Of a DNA stretch of 10,558 nucleotides, positions 1 through 9,886 are shown one piece after another. Within the stretch, counting starts at the first letter, position 1; each line of letters starts with the position of its first letter. Under the pieces are notes generated by a model. The model was not told where the DNA came from, made no database searches, and saw only the letters and a program-made list of their open reading frames with translations. Both the position numbers and the translations under genes were made by a program. Source of the stretch: Nitrospirales bacterium (GTDB taxonomy: Bacteria > Nitrospirota > Nitrospiria > Nitrospirales > UBA8639); NCBI GenBank assembly GCA_013817135.1, contig JACDDF010000033.1, positions 1-10,558 on the forward strand, given 5' to 3'.

Positions 1-1440
1 CAGTTCTTCAACCAATGAAGCCGTGCCGAGGGGTACTTTCAGGTAATAGCCAGGCCCTGTAAGGCTGGGCACGATACTTCGTCGAAGTTCCGGGTTGAGT
101 CGTTGGAGTTCCTCAACCGGAATTCCCGTTTGTTGTGTAACGGCTGATAGATGAACGCGCTTCGTAATCAGGACTTCCTCAAATTCATGGCGATCACCGT
201 CAGGAGTACTGAATCCATAGGCGGTGGGATTTTGTGCGATAAGGGTCGCCGCAATAAAACGAGGCACATAGTCTTTGGTCTCCCGTCTTATGTGGCGAGA
301 TTGTCGAATAGTCCAAAAATCACGGGTCCCCGTTTTTTTGATGGCCCGCGAAATCTTTCCACTCCCTGCATTGTACGCTCCCAGGGCGAGAGGCCAGGAG
401 CCAAACTGGTCATATAAATCACGAAGATGATGGGCGGCAGCAACTGTGGATTTAATAGGATCCCGTCGTTCATCCAAATACCAGTCGACATCAAGGCCAT
501 ACACACGGCCGGTCCCTTTCATGAATTGCCAGGGGCCTGATGCACGGGATCGAGAAAATGCACGAGGGTTGAACCCACTTTCGACGAGGGAAAGATACAT
601 GAGTTCCGGTGGGAGACCTAGTTCACGAAAAACGGGTTCTACAAGGTCTTGATAATGATGAAAGCGGTCAAGATACGATTGAAATCGTTCATGAATCCCA
701 TACTGAAAATATTCAAGATTTTTCTCTACCGAATCGTTCAGTACAAGGGGAATGGTGCCATATGCCCCTGGTTTTCTCTGTTGGGGGGCTTCCCATGTTT
801 GATCGAAAACCTGGGCAAATCGGGCTAGGACAACCTGCGACCGTTGCTCAGATGAGTCAGCAGGGTAAAAACGTAATTTTGTAGAGGAGTTGATTGAGAA
901 CCCAGTTTGAGCGTCTGGGGCTTCAAGCTTATTTTCGTCAGACAAAAAAATCCGCTGGTTTTGTGAAGGGTTAGGTTCCTGGGAGACATCAACTGATGAG
1001 GGATTAATGGGTCTTCCAGCATCCGATGATTGGATTTGGTGTGCTGGTGTTTGAGCTATGTCATCTAGAGAAGACTGGTTCGAGTCGTCTTCGGAAGATA
1101 ACCCTGTCATCCCTGGAGTTGGTTTCTCAGTTTGATCTATGAGAATAAATAATTGCTGATTCTTTTGAATGGTGCTCGTCGGAAACGTTTGAGTCTCAAT
1201 TGAGGTTCCTTGGTGAGGGTGGCTATTTGCAATAGCATAATTCAACGTCAGCTCTTCCGTGGAGTCATTAGGAGGGGAGAACGAGGATTCGCCAAGGGAT
1301 GGTTGAGGGCAAAGAGCCAACGTGATCAAAATGACACTGGAGCCAAAGAGTAGGTTGCTGGCAATGCCAGCCGCTCGCAGAGGAACGGAGGAATGTTGAA
1401 CTTGTAACGTTTTATCTAAGTGATTCATTTTATAAGACAT
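1..1440 (-). CDS. MltD-like membrane/periplasmic lytic murein transglycosylase, partial (C-terminus beyond left edge)
   Basis: The minus frame is open for 480 codons from ATG at 1440 to the window edge, so the C-terminus is missing. The product cleaves the MurNAc-GlcNAc bond of peptidoglycan, releasing 1,6-anhydro ends, in the periplasm. Residues about 24-43 are hydrophobic and act as a signal sequence or anchor. LALC ends this stretch but is a poor lipobox. Residues about 50-230 are a Ser/Gln/Pro-rich low-complexity linker. The GH23 SLT domain spans about 265-400: ESGFNP carries the expected catalytic Glu287, followed by GPWQFM (302-307) and AYNAG (355-359). After about residue 425 comes an MltD-type segment resembling the start of the LysM-bearing region. 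LysM repeats probably lie beyond the edge. No strong SD is visible. A second ATG at 1428 is possible. A promoter candidate lies just upstream. Confidence 0.9.
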   Translation of the reverse strand, partial: MSYKMNHLDKTLQVQHSSVPLRAAGIASNLLFGSSVILITLALCPQPSLGESSFSPPNDSTEELTLNYAIANSHPHQGTSIETQTFPTSTIQKNQQLFILIDQTEKPTPGMTGLSSEDDSNQSSLDDIAQTPAHQIQSSDAGRPINPSSVDVSQEPNPSQNQRIFLSDENKLEAPDAQTGFSINSSTKLRFYPADSSEQRSQVVLARFAQVFDQTWEAPQQRKPGAYGTIPLVLNDSVEKNLEYFQYGIHERFQSYLDRFHHYQDLVEPVFRELGLPPELMYLSLVESGFNPRAFSRSRASGPWQFMKGTGRVYGLDVDWYLDERRDPIKSTVAAAHHLRDLYDQFGSWPLALGAYNAGSGKISRAIKKTGTRDFWTIRQSRHIRRETKDYVPRFIAATLIAQNPTAYGFSTPDGDRHEFEEVLITKRVHLSAVTQQTGIPVEELQRLNPELRRSIVPSLTGPGYYLKVPLGTASLVEEL

Positions 1441-1466
1441 TTCGGCAAATCTGTGCACAACTTAAC

Positions 1467-1575: not shown

Positions 1576-1639
1576 GCGAATATGATGAGAGGGAGAATGA
1601 GAGTGGCGTTTTCATTCCTGTTATTAGGCAAAAATGTCA

Positions 1640-2605
1640 CCGATGACGGTTGGCCGGTAGGGCCCAGAATAAAATTATCACGCCCCTTATCCAGATGCAA
1701 TATCCTTTTCTTTTGCAAGGTGGTGAGGATATCGGTGAGGGGCAGGATGTCGCCATCCTCCGATCCTGGCAAGGAGCAACCCTGCAAGGCTTTGCGAATC
1801 TGTTCAACCGATTTGGGTTGCTCATTGCAAAATTTTAAGATGAAGGCCTGTGGTCCCTCAAATCGTTCACTGGTCGGAGTTAAGCCTCTTAAATATTCCA
1901 GGAGGGATCAATATTTCAATATCGCCTACATACTGAGCATTCTTGGCTTTGTAGTAGGCTTACGCCCTTATCCATTTCATTTAGTTGGGCCAGACCCAAC
2001 CTTTCGATGCCCGGTTGCATGCATTTAATCACACCCTTTCCGCGATTACGACGTAATCAATCCAGGGAAATGTCCGAAAATGTTCCGGTCCCATTTCTCA
2101 GTCGAAATTGGCCCACCCCAAAACAATCCGAACATCGGGATATACGTTCCTGATCAATTTGACCGGATTTAAGCCTGCGACATTTTGATCGAACCTGGAG
2201 GGGGGGATACCCACCACTTAAATTGACTCCAATCTACTGATGTCAGGCATCAGGTTAAAAACTGAGGAGAGATCGTTCGGGCATTTTCTGCTAAATGATT
2301 GATAGAACAGCCGACTTCCAGATCCGTGTCTTCGAAAATGGGTTTAAACACGATAGGATATTCCTTGTGTTTGGGATTATTCCGAAACGGCAGTGCAAAG
2401 AACAGCCATTCCCCGAATAGGCCACGTTTCTCACGCAGATTTCGTATAGCGGCACCCCGATTTTATGGGCGAATTGAAAATTGATCGGATAGGTCTGGAT
2501 GCTAACCCCTTGTACTTTTAGCAAGGACGAGAGGGTCCCTAGTTGGATCGAGAGAAATTCGATTAACTAAATGCCATGGTTGCCAGTGCGACCTTTGTTC
2601 TAAAA
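1640..2605 (-). pseudogene. decayed RiPP maturation radical SAM C-methyltransferase (rSAM_ocin_1 type)
   Basis: No minus frame stays open, but pieces in 5'-3' order read like one protein family that modifies ribosomal peptides with a B12-binding plus radical SAM enzyme. The pieces are KVALATMAF (about 2602-2569), then SIQLGTLSSLLKVQG and FAHKIGVPLYEI (frame change near 2445). GLFGEWLFFALPF, ARTISPQFLT and DWSQF follow (to 2220). A one-base loss at 2218-2219 then leads to VVGI, FDQNVA, YPDVRIVLGWANFD-stop-EMGPEHF and FPWIDYVVIAE (to about 2048). The next pieces are MQPGIERL and MDKGVSLLQ (2020-1949). The C-terminal winged-helix-like part runs from 1907 to about 1650 (AFILKFCNEQPKSVEQIRKA, then ILHLDKGRDNFIL). 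In-frame stops include 2098-2100. The family is about 600-670 residues, but only about 300 remain. The CxxxCxxC cluster site is absent. Family assignment is from memory of conserved motifs. There is no plausible intact product. Confidence 0.72.
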
Positions 2606-2705
2606 GATCGAAAACTGGTGGTGACCCGAGATGAAGGGGCCTGAGTTCATTTTGCCTCTGAAGCAACCGGGTGAATCAAGGTCGGGCTGGTGGCTATAAG
2701 AGCCT

Positions 2706-3050
2706 TCAGTAGGCAGCAGGAAGGTGAAAGGCGCGATCCGCCTTGGCGGCTAAATAAAAATCACTTTCGGTGAGGCCTTGAATTTTGTGGGTCCAAATTT
2801 CTACTTTGCATTTGCCCCAGGCCAAATATATATCAGGGTGATGGCCCTCAAGTTCCGCGACATTGCCCACTCGATTAGTAAAAGCCAAGGCATCTGCAAA
2901 ATTATCAAAGGTATATGTTTTTTCAATATGACCTTGAGCATTTAGCGCCCATCCAGTCTCCAATTGACCCAACAGGTCCTGGACTTTCCCAGGTTCCAAC
3001 GGTGGTACGCCCCCACGACATGGCACGCATGTATTATCTGCTAGGCTCAT
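2706..3050 (-). CDS. pterin-4a-carbinolamine dehydratase
   Basis: This is a complete 114-residue protein, the normal size for the PCD/DCoH family (EC 4.2.1.96). The enzyme dehydrates 4a-hydroxytetrahydropterin, recycling the pterin cofactor of aromatic amino acid hydroxylases. Many bacteria without such a hydroxylase also carry one, possibly for pterin or molybdopterin metabolism. It is cytosolic. The signature is clear: CVPCRGGVPPL at the N-terminus, EGHHPD with His70-His71, then WTHK with His88 and GLTESD. The 18-residue spacing between His70 and His88 matches the family. The start is fixed by AGGAGG (3057-3062) six bases before ATG. No hydroxylase gene is visible nearby, so its partner is unknown. 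The relic lies downstream and a run of small inverted repeats upstream. Confidence 0.93.
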   Translation of the reverse strand: MSLADNTCVPCRGGVPPLEPGKVQDLLGQLETGWALNAQGHIEKTYTFDNFADALAFTNRVGNVAELEGHHPDIYLAWGKCKVEIWTHKIQGLTESDFYLAAKADRAFHLPAAY

Positions 3051-3321: not shown

Positions 3322-3700
3322 GTTCTACGATTTCCCAAGGTAGCATCAGAATTCGACTTCTACCATGGGCTATCGGAAAGTTCTGCCCAGACCAGCCCGG
3401 CATGGAGCCACACTTATATTCGGTTCGAATATGACTCCACCAACTTCCAAACCTATGGCTTTTGTCACCGGCCCTTTTGACAAAAAGAACAGAATGAGGG
3501 CAAGGGGGCGGCAGGATGGCATGATATATCCCTTAGAAGAACTCTGTTTGAAACACTCCGGAATTGCAGTGGGTTTCAGCAAATCATACAGCACGTGAAA
3601 CCTCGGGGAACAAGAGCCAACGGGGCCTTTGTTTGAGATAGATGATCTTCGCGGTTCTGTCAGACTTAAGAACGAAGGGAGATTTAAGTATGAAGAAGGT

Positions 3701-3967
3701 TCAGGAAGGCATAGGAAGGATAAGACCCCCATTTTGGGTAAACTCTTGTTGCTGGGTTTGAGAGAAAAAGGCGAGAGGTTCATTATGGCAAAACTGGCAT
3801 TCTTTTGTTGTGATGACGGCATCTGGTTCACCTAAGCTGGCAAGATAGGTTTTGGCTAAGCGAAGAGCGGTATCTTCATCTGTTGTCATGACGTCAAAGT
3901 GAATGGTGCCCGTTTTACCTTGCACCCAGGTATCAAAGACTTTGACGGTATTTGAGGATTGGTTCAT
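3701..3967 (-). CDS. DUF2024 family protein
   Basis: This is a complete 88-residue cytosolic protein of unknown biochemical role, the usual length for DUF2024. The family pattern is clear: VKVFDTWV near the N-terminus, IHFDVMTTDED (22-32), then an Ala/Leu-rich helix. The signature ECQFCH (56-61) supplies Cys57, Cys60 and His61, which could bind a metal, although that is only an inference. The start is supported by AAGGA (3973-3977) five bases before ATG 3967. A perfect 10-base palindrome, GTTCATGAAC (3962-3971), covers the start codon and may affect initiation. The gene appears monocistronic; the next gene downstream on this strand is about 650 bases away. Confidence 0.88.
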   Translation of the reverse strand: MNQSSNTVKVFDTWVQGKTGTIHFDVMTTDEDTALRLAKTYLASLGEPDAVITTKECQFCHNEPLAFFSQTQQQEFTQNGGLILPMPS

Positions 3968-5110: not shown

Positions 5111-5355
5111 CGTCTACCCCCTCATCACAGCATTGTCATTATTTTTGTAATCCCCTCTTGTAATTTTTTTCTCACAGACCTTGTCTAGGGGGCAGAGAAA
5201 TTTCACGTGTGGAAAAATCGTGAAAGACCCCTCTCTGGCCTCAAGTGGCGATGTGTCAAGGTAAGAGGATGTGGTACCCAAGCCAGGGCTTGTCCAGATT
5301 GCCGGCAAATGGTGGTGTGATTTGCTGTTGTCATAATTCAACAAAAGGACCAAAT
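5111..5355. other. AT-rich intergenic region ahead of the PagL-like gene
   Basis: No gene is supported here. TTTCAC (5201-5206) and GTGAAA (5220-5225) form a 6-base inverted repeat with a 13-base spacer that could be an operator for the downstream gene. An in-frame upstream start at 5245 is possible, but its extra 37 residues (Cys/Gly-rich, unlike a signal peptide) argue against it. Confidence 0.4.
5345..5349 (+). promoter_or_regulatory. ribosome binding site deciding a GTG start
   Basis: AAGGA lies six bases before GTG 5356. It selects this start over the upstream start at 5245, because translation from GTG gives a standard signal peptide at the N-terminus. Confidence 0.65.
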
Positions 5356-5946
5356 GTGGAGAGAAGCAAAATCGTGTCAAAATTCCCAGCGACGATAACC
5401 GGTATCCTGGTGATGACTGTATGGCTCACGGTAATGAATGCGGGCTTGGCCCACACCAAAGAGACTGAATTACTCTCCGTTGGGATACGGGGAGGACTCA
5501 ATTCTAATACGTTAGGCATTCCGCCAACTGAAAAGGAAGATTTTCAGCAATACGACGTATTTGCGGTTGTTGGAACTCCCTGGAATTGGGATTTTCCTTC
5601 CGGATGGGAGATACGTTTTAGATTGAATCTGGCGGCAGGTGCGTTGAGGGCGGCGGGAGAGGCCGGGTTCATTGGAGAGGTCAGCCCTGGGCTGGCCTTT
5701 ACGAAGCCAGATTGGAACCTCACTTTCGATATTGGCGGTGGTGGGGCATATCTGAGTAGGGAAAAATATGGTCGTCAGGATATTGGAGGACCTGTTCAAA
5801 TTGCTGCGCATGCTGGTATTACCTATCACCTTCCCTGGCATATGTCCCTAGGATGGCGATTTCATCATATTTCTGATGCGGCACTATACGGGTCTAATAA
5901 TCGAGGAGTGGATCTACATTTGTATGAGCTCAGCTATCGGTTCTGA
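5356..5946 (+). CDS. PagL-like lipid A 3-O-deacylase (acyloxyacyl hydrolase family)
   Basis: This is a 196-residue outer-membrane β-barrel enzyme of the PagL family, which removes the 3-O acyl chain of lipid A and so remodels lipopolysaccharide. Starting at GTG 5356, residues 4-32 form a signal peptide (basic KIVSK, hydrophobic core ITGILVMTVWLTVM, likely cleavage after GLA32). The mature part has alternating β-strand patterns and ends in an aromatic residue (LYELSYRF), as outer-membrane barrels do. The C-terminal motif FHHISDAAL supplies the expected His-x-Ser pair (His171, Ser173) and is followed by N-N-R-G-V-D, as in the family. Glu191 may be the third catalytic residue, but its distance from the Ser is uncertain. 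It is probably monocistronic, and the next gene converges on it. Confidence 0.82.
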   Translation: MERSKIVSKFPATITGILVMTVWLTVMNAGLAHTKETELLSVGIRGGLNSNTLGIPPTEKEDFQQYDVFAVVGTPWNWDFPSGWEIRFRLNLAAGALRAAGEAGFIGEVSPGLAFTKPDWNLTFDIGGGGAYLSREKYGRQDIGGPVQIAAHAGITYHLPWHMSLGWRFHHISDAALYGSNNRGVDLHLYELSYRF

Positions 5947-9640: not shown

Positions 9641-9886
9641 CTAATGGGGCTTCTTTGGTTCACCTTTCCCATCCTTCCCATCTTTCCCATCCTTGTCTTT
9701 TTTCTCGTCCATCTTTTTCTTGTCACCCTTTTTACCCTTGTCGCCTTTGTCATCCTTATCCGCATCTGAGTTCAAGGGAAAGGTGTTCTGAATGGACGAA
9801 TTGTCCGCCAAGGGTCCGGCGAAGGTCATTCCGCCAAAGGCCAAGGCAACAACTAAGGTTAATAAAACGGTAGATAATTTAATCAT
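9641..9886 (-). CDS. small exported Lys/Asp/Gly-rich protein, hypothetical
   Basis: The product has 81 residues, of which about 23 form a signal peptide: MIKL, then the hydrophobic core STVLLTLVVALAFGG and likely cleavage after TFA23. The mature 58 residues begin GPLADNSSIQNTFPLNSD and then become an almost pure charged tail of Lys, Asp and Gly with repeats KGDKG, KKGDKK and three KDG units, ending GEPKKPH. It should be disordered and sit in the periplasm or outside the cell. No family is recognised. The tail could bind anions or metals, but that is a guess. The start is well fixed: GGAGGG (9894-9899) seven bases before ATG. It has its own terminator, so it is a single-gene unit and probably well expressed. 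Confidence 0.8.
   Translation of the reverse strand: MIKLSTVLLTLVVALAFGGMTFAGPLADNSSIQNTFPLNSDADKDDKGDKGKKGDKKKMDEKKDKDGKDGKDGKGEPKKPH

Follow-up and report, generated by a model that had tools for sequence, protein, structure and literature searches.

Positions 1637-2709 of the window (the whole stretch of DNA analysed, 10,558 nucleotides from a member of the Nitrospirales, the group that holds nitrite oxidisers) very probably carry what is left, no longer functional, of a minus-strand gene of the TIGR03975 type for a B12-binding radical SAM enzyme. The gene is near-core in the order and was inactivated in the common ancestor of the species and of two sisters; its intact product is predicted to methylate a peptide or a protein. 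Both disabling changes and a loss of codon-position constraint are seen in the stretch.

An earlier note, made from the letters of the window, had read positions 1640-2605 as the pieces of one heavily decayed protein and had named its family as rSAM_ocin_1 (TIGR03975). The motifs that it listed are indeed present, in the right order, on the minus strand and spread over three frames, and the locus was right, if drawn slightly short, as the remnant begins at 2709 and extends to the former stop codon at 1639-1637. When the genome that holds the window was searched with the TIGR03975 profile, the locus was matched twice, collinearly and with stops inside both matches: window 2044-2223 corresponds to model positions 129-187 (E 1.1e-10) and window 1892-2056 to model positions 355-408 (E 2.3e-4), so that the middle of the model is absent between adjoining bases of the window. 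The two pieces score 40.9 and 20 bits and, as expected of a decayed copy, do not reach the cut-off of 281.85; the observation as a whole is far above chance. At the DNA level the stretch is matched in 19 of the 20 genomes of the genus, its own counted (18 of the 19 others). Intact orthologues of 648-653 aa, which the note had proposed to look for, were found in related genomes, and within the genus they sit behind a gene for pterin-4a-carbinolamine dehydratase (PCD) and before a lytic-transglycosylase gene, that is, in the place of the remnant (Table 1). The intact orthologue at locus L055 aligns with the window in three collinear blocks (window 2720-2043, 84.3% over 681 columns; 2038-1893, 82.2% over 146 columns; 1889-1560, 81.7% over 333 columns), between which it is longer by about 0.5 and 0.4 kb. 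The single decayed protein and its family thus both hold.

Table 1. Features of the window around the remnant, its lesions and its neighbours
Feature	Position	Strand	Basis
Very probable pseudogene of a TIGR03975 B12-binding radical SAM gene	1637..2709	-	Collinear 82-84% DNA blocks to intact orthologues; alignment to seven further copies (five intact, two decayed)
Remains of the putative C-terminal PqqD/RRE-like domain	1640..1860	-	Frame 0 still readable over most of the length; domain assigned on intact relatives
Lost start: TTG counterpart (first possible start) is CTG at 2709-2707; conserved ATG counterpart is ATA at 2697-2695	2695..2709	-	Alignment
1-bp deletion, common to G019 and G009	2559..2560	-	Alignment
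In-frame TGA (of GAC-TGA-GAA); Gly codon in five aligned intact genes	2098..2100	-	Alignment
Junction of ~514-bp deletion; radical SAM core with CX7CX2C gone	2038..2039	-	DNA blocks and alignment
Junction of ~379-bp deletion, common to G019 (379 bp) and G009 (371 bp as aligned)	1890..1891	-	Alignment
Intact gene for PCD (114 aa, PF01329), whose partner is the lost gene; the end of the PCD gene overlaps the former start of that partner	2706..3050	-	Pfam
Lytic-transglycosylase (SLT) gene, cut off by the window edge; lies downstream of the remnant and, elsewhere in the genus, of the intact gene	1..1458	-	Pfam

Set against intact genes, the copy in the window shows six frame-changing indels, among them the two large deletions of about 514 and 379 bp; it also has in-frame stops and has lost both candidate starts. 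The earlier note had ascribed the decay to frame changes and stops, and had singled out a TGA where Gly is expected; frameshifts and stops are both present, and that TGA (2100-2098) does align with Gly codons, but the two large deletions account for a good part of the harm, and the radical SAM core has been removed outright, not scrambled. Two sister genomes, G019 and G009, also lack 1022 bp, with different end points, in a gap that spans the content of the ~514-bp deletion of the window. Because both have the 1-bp deletion and the second large deletion in common with the window, the gene was, on this alignment, already dead in the common ancestor of the window species, G019 and G009, before the three lineages split. 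An assembly or sequencing artefact could be suspected, as the genome of the window is a draft in 645 contigs; it is, however, most improbable, because two further genomes have part of the same damage, the 1-bp and 379-bp deletions recurring in G019 (7 contigs) and, with a small length difference, in G009.

Differences between the window copy and that of G019 are spread evenly over codon positions 1, 2 and 3 (0.20/0.16/0.19). Those between the PCD genes of the same two genomes follow the pattern of a working gene (0.026/0/0.104), and the intact orthologues of G002 and G014 differ by 0.054/0.031/0.265. All these rates were taken from aligned stretches that are short, with some 165 sites per position in the case of the window and G019. 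By these rates, the remnant has decayed since its inactivation without visible constraint, with PCD meanwhile intact. About 1 kb of the stretch remains recognisable, and one might ask if it still functions, as a non-coding RNA, as small proteins or through recoding; we consider this highly unlikely, as no Rfam family matches at its gathering score, which rejects an RNA gene, the sisters lack other parts of the stretch, and codon-position constraint is absent. As to a second copy, the other TIGR03975 matches in the window's own genome all fall below the cut-off (best 141.4 bits), and a profile search found no copy above it in G019 or G009. An intact copy elsewhere in the window's genome is possible because that genome is a draft, 84.6% complete; G019, which is 99% complete, has none over the cut-off.

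What the lost protein may have done is best read from the intact orthologues. The four that were scanned match TIGR03975 from end to end (607.8, 608.4, 620.5 and 616.2 bits, against the cut-off of 281.85), the family that NCBIfam names rSAM_ocin_1, 'RiPP maturation radical SAM C-methyltransferase'; the family owes this name to members other than these. The Pfam radical SAM domain was above cut-off in both orthologues examined and the B12-binding domain in one of the two. A CX7CX2C cluster motif, deleted in the window copy, is present in all 60 orthologue rows (some genomes being represented twice) and in 10 of 10 aligned members from outside the order. Among solved structures the best match is TokK (PDB 7kdx; residues 179-354, E 3.2e-12), a B12-dependent radical SAM methyltransferase and a remote relative, which acts on a carbapenem intermediate and not on a peptide. 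The intact enzyme would bind cobalamin through a Rossmann domain and hold a [4Fe-4S] cluster through CX7CX2C.

The C-terminal ~80 residues align with profiles of PqqD, the RiPP recognition element (RRE), with a probability of 87.5% when built from members of the order and of 93.4% when members from outside were added; ArsR helix-turn-helix controls gave 0.1% and 3.1%, and reversed sequences 0.2-0.3% (row L214, seemingly misread, was kept in this comparison, and ArsR row L238 was dropped for a stop). A putative domain of this kind is indicated in the outside members as well; here it would be fused to the enzyme and, for the member shown, its match lies below the Pfam cut-off. Taken one sequence at a time, 10 of 34 members match Pfam PqqD (PF05402) at E 1 or better, the best at 7.5e-4, below cut-off; these matches are weak because an unrelated family also matches 6 of the 34 (best 0.0023). 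Against solved structures the C-terminal profile gave nothing significant, a PQQ synthesis C/D protein ranking fifth (E 1.3), and a structure prediction from seven sequences was dropped for its mean pLDDT of 44.3. The PqqD/RRE-like domain may dock a peptide or a protein, an unreactive carbon of which the enzyme would then methylate.

The orthologue is found throughout the order, as a rule in single copy: 123 of 146 genomes match it at E 1e-60 or better, although two of these (G106 and G136) do so only through divergent copies of 31-38% identity, leaving 121, several of them cut by contig ends. A wider sample, 118 genomes drawn from the phylum, yields 22 with a TIGR03975 match at E 1e-80, every one of them inside the order. 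Elsewhere the family is patchy, with matches at E 1e-70 in 7 of 398 genomes of Pseudomonadota (at most three candidates scored per genome), in contrast to a near-core gene that sits behind PCD with no recognised precursor and of which the window holds a dead copy. In the tree, 40 orthologues fall on one side of a 100/100 branch, with families f1, f2 and f3 apart, a topology consistent with vertical descent; the eleven outside rows are long-branched and the root is unsure (L175, L176 and L188, with a stop in frame as cut, and nine loci that were near-copies or duplicates were left out). The nearest outside row, on a 99/94 branch but again with long branches, is WP_114059372.1 of Streptomyces globosus, from a pheganomycin-type cluster (38% identity over 94% of the query); it adjoins an annotated pheganomycin-family precursor and other cluster genes, and no PCD is listed there.

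Divergent TIGR03975 copies (L190, L188 and L189, in G106, G131 and G136) have 31-38% identity to the orthologue, and of these genomes G106 and G136 have no orthologue match. The copy of G106 groups with a Sinorhizobium meliloti member that adjoins Nif11 leaders (100/98), and by this grouping it may be a true RiPP enzyme. A separate oddity concerns the genome G240, to which a record titled Nitrospinota (B18T1B5; L049) belongs: its TIGR03975 match has almost the contig number and place of the match in G077, which is in the window's family, so that title and placement seem to disagree.

PCD is detected at E 1e-8 in 142 of 146 genomes of the order (in G006 and G102 only weakly); these include every one of the 123 genomes in which the enzyme was matched and 19 of the 23 in which it was not. 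It lies directly upstream, on the same strand, in 108 of the 123, with a gap between the matches of -6 to 337 bp (median 70). In the remaining 15 (six f2 genomes with a match, seven f3 genomes, G106 and G136) it is on another contig; four of these loci (L119, L120, L121 and L124) show at least 4.6 kb upstream of the gene with no PCD match, L122 covers only 454 bp upstream, and a contig break may account for the rest. None of eight loci outside the order showed a PCD match.

The stretch upstream of PCD seems, from the comparisons made, to change fast. A frame of 847 aa lies there in G014 (L059:7525-10068, minus strand), with no Pfam match; 44 residues encoded at window 3401-3532 (minus strand) match it at 45% identity (E 6e-6) and are a possible second relic. 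Some relatives have a caspase-domain (Peptidase_C14) gene upstream of PCD (L070:2874-4148, plus strand; L063), of whose product G019 keeps a 101-aa piece, the window giving no match at E 1e-3. A gene for a small DUF2024 protein (window 3701-3967, minus strand; PF09630, E 1.7e-21) is kept upstream of PCD in some relatives. Further along, the window holds a gene for a PagL-like lipid A 3-O-deacylase (5245-5946, plus strand; PF09411, E 2.4e-18) and one for an 81-aa protein with a signal-like start and a repetitive tail rich in Lys, Asp and Gly, without a Pfam or NCBIfam match (9641-9886, minus strand).

The gene has probably been lost more than once. An orthologue is missing from 25 of the 146 genomes, namely G106, G136 and the 23 that gave no match, and the region behind PCD was inspected in 18 of them, the window and 17 others, with only 115 bp available in G032 and a partial PCD match in G025; G006, G070, G102, G035, G045 and G101 were left out of the search. 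Six carry relics behind PCD: the window's genome, G019 and G009, which represent one event, and G098 (C-terminal part, 79% identity), G095 (B12-binding part, 43%) and G108 (36 residues, 64%). Among the remaining twelve no match was seen at E 0.01 except in G107 (27%, E 0.001) and G031 (wrong strand), whose weak hits were taken as chance; a 31-residue match in G104 overlaps the end of PCD, disappeared with trimmed queries and was not counted. In G012 a C-terminal piece, readable in a single frame, lies where a contig ends, and the one frameshift of G034 reflects either recent decay or a sequencing error. Four genomes without the gene (G012, G045, G070 and G101) also lack a PCD match, so that PCD is at times lost too, unless gaps in the drafts explain its absence. 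Because the relics lie in three genera that also have intact copies, and keep different parts, at least three losses are likely, and the function of the enzyme would have become dispensable in several lineages.

The loss, then, is that of a B12-radical SAM enzyme that is near-core in the order and mostly paired with PCD. The earlier note had gone further, to the loss of a RiPP pathway, and here the claim is only partly supported: the enzyme is gone, and its putative PqqD/RRE-like domain keeps a peptide substrate possible, but no precursor is recognised beside the gene. That the enzyme matured a RiPP, with a precursor unlinked or of an unrecognised kind, and that this pathway was lost here, is a reading we regard as rather doubtful, even though the family name, the PqqD alignment, the pheganomycin-cluster member as nearest outside row and the annotated precursors beside three relatives speak for it. 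Those three are among six plasmid-borne family members, while two others have none annotated, in a plasmid gene table that has gaps, and the record of the sixth bears no annotation there. Against it, no short frame is common across families among the eight largest groups listed for 24 loci, with frames taken from the 700 bp before PCD and the 500 bp after the gene; these groups reach at most 7 loci each, each inside one genus or family. In five f3 loci a frame does lie upstream of PCD, which we take to resemble a CBS-domain protein. Nif11 leaders were above cut-off in one of 57 genomes of the order, G027, which has no enzyme (a Synechococcus control matched), and below it in three enzyme-bearing genomes, inside longer frames. 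The TIGR03793 leader was found in none of 20 genomes, but no control matched either, so that this absence carries no weight. The gene is also near-core and tied to PCD rather than patchy.

These last features fit a different role, in which the enzyme modifies a housekeeping protein, or acts with PCD in pterin metabolism, and it is that modification which was lost; we give this a probability somewhat short of even. A protein target would have a precedent in the B12-radical SAM enzyme by which methyl-coenzyme M reductase is modified, and both the constant company of PCD in genomes with a match and its position directly upstream in most of them are in line with such a role, as is the single-copy habit of the gene. 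The mere presence of PCD says little, however, because PCD is nearly universal in the order; moreover, PCD persists where the enzyme is gone, the two genes stand apart in 15 of the 123 genomes, and the putative PqqD-like domain points to a peptide. From the domain content, a peptide or protein substrate is plausible. Tentatively, PCD and the TIGR03975 enzyme could form an order-wide two-gene module of the Nitrospirales that places a B12/radical-SAM mark on a target other than a classical RiPP precursor, be it a pterin, a housekeeping protein or an unlinked peptide, and that has broken down repeatedly, each time losing the enzyme and keeping PCD, as in the window.

By itself, the dead gene is an ordinary, though well-dated, pseudogene. 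Its greater interest lies in what it indicates about the family, which takes its name from RiPP maturation and which is near-core across an entire order, for the most part coupled to PCD and with no precursor recognised beside the gene. Annotation by family name would label such copies 'RiPP maturation' with or without an actual RiPP, and the species with an intact gene, set against sisters in which it is dead, make a natural comparison for finding the substrate.
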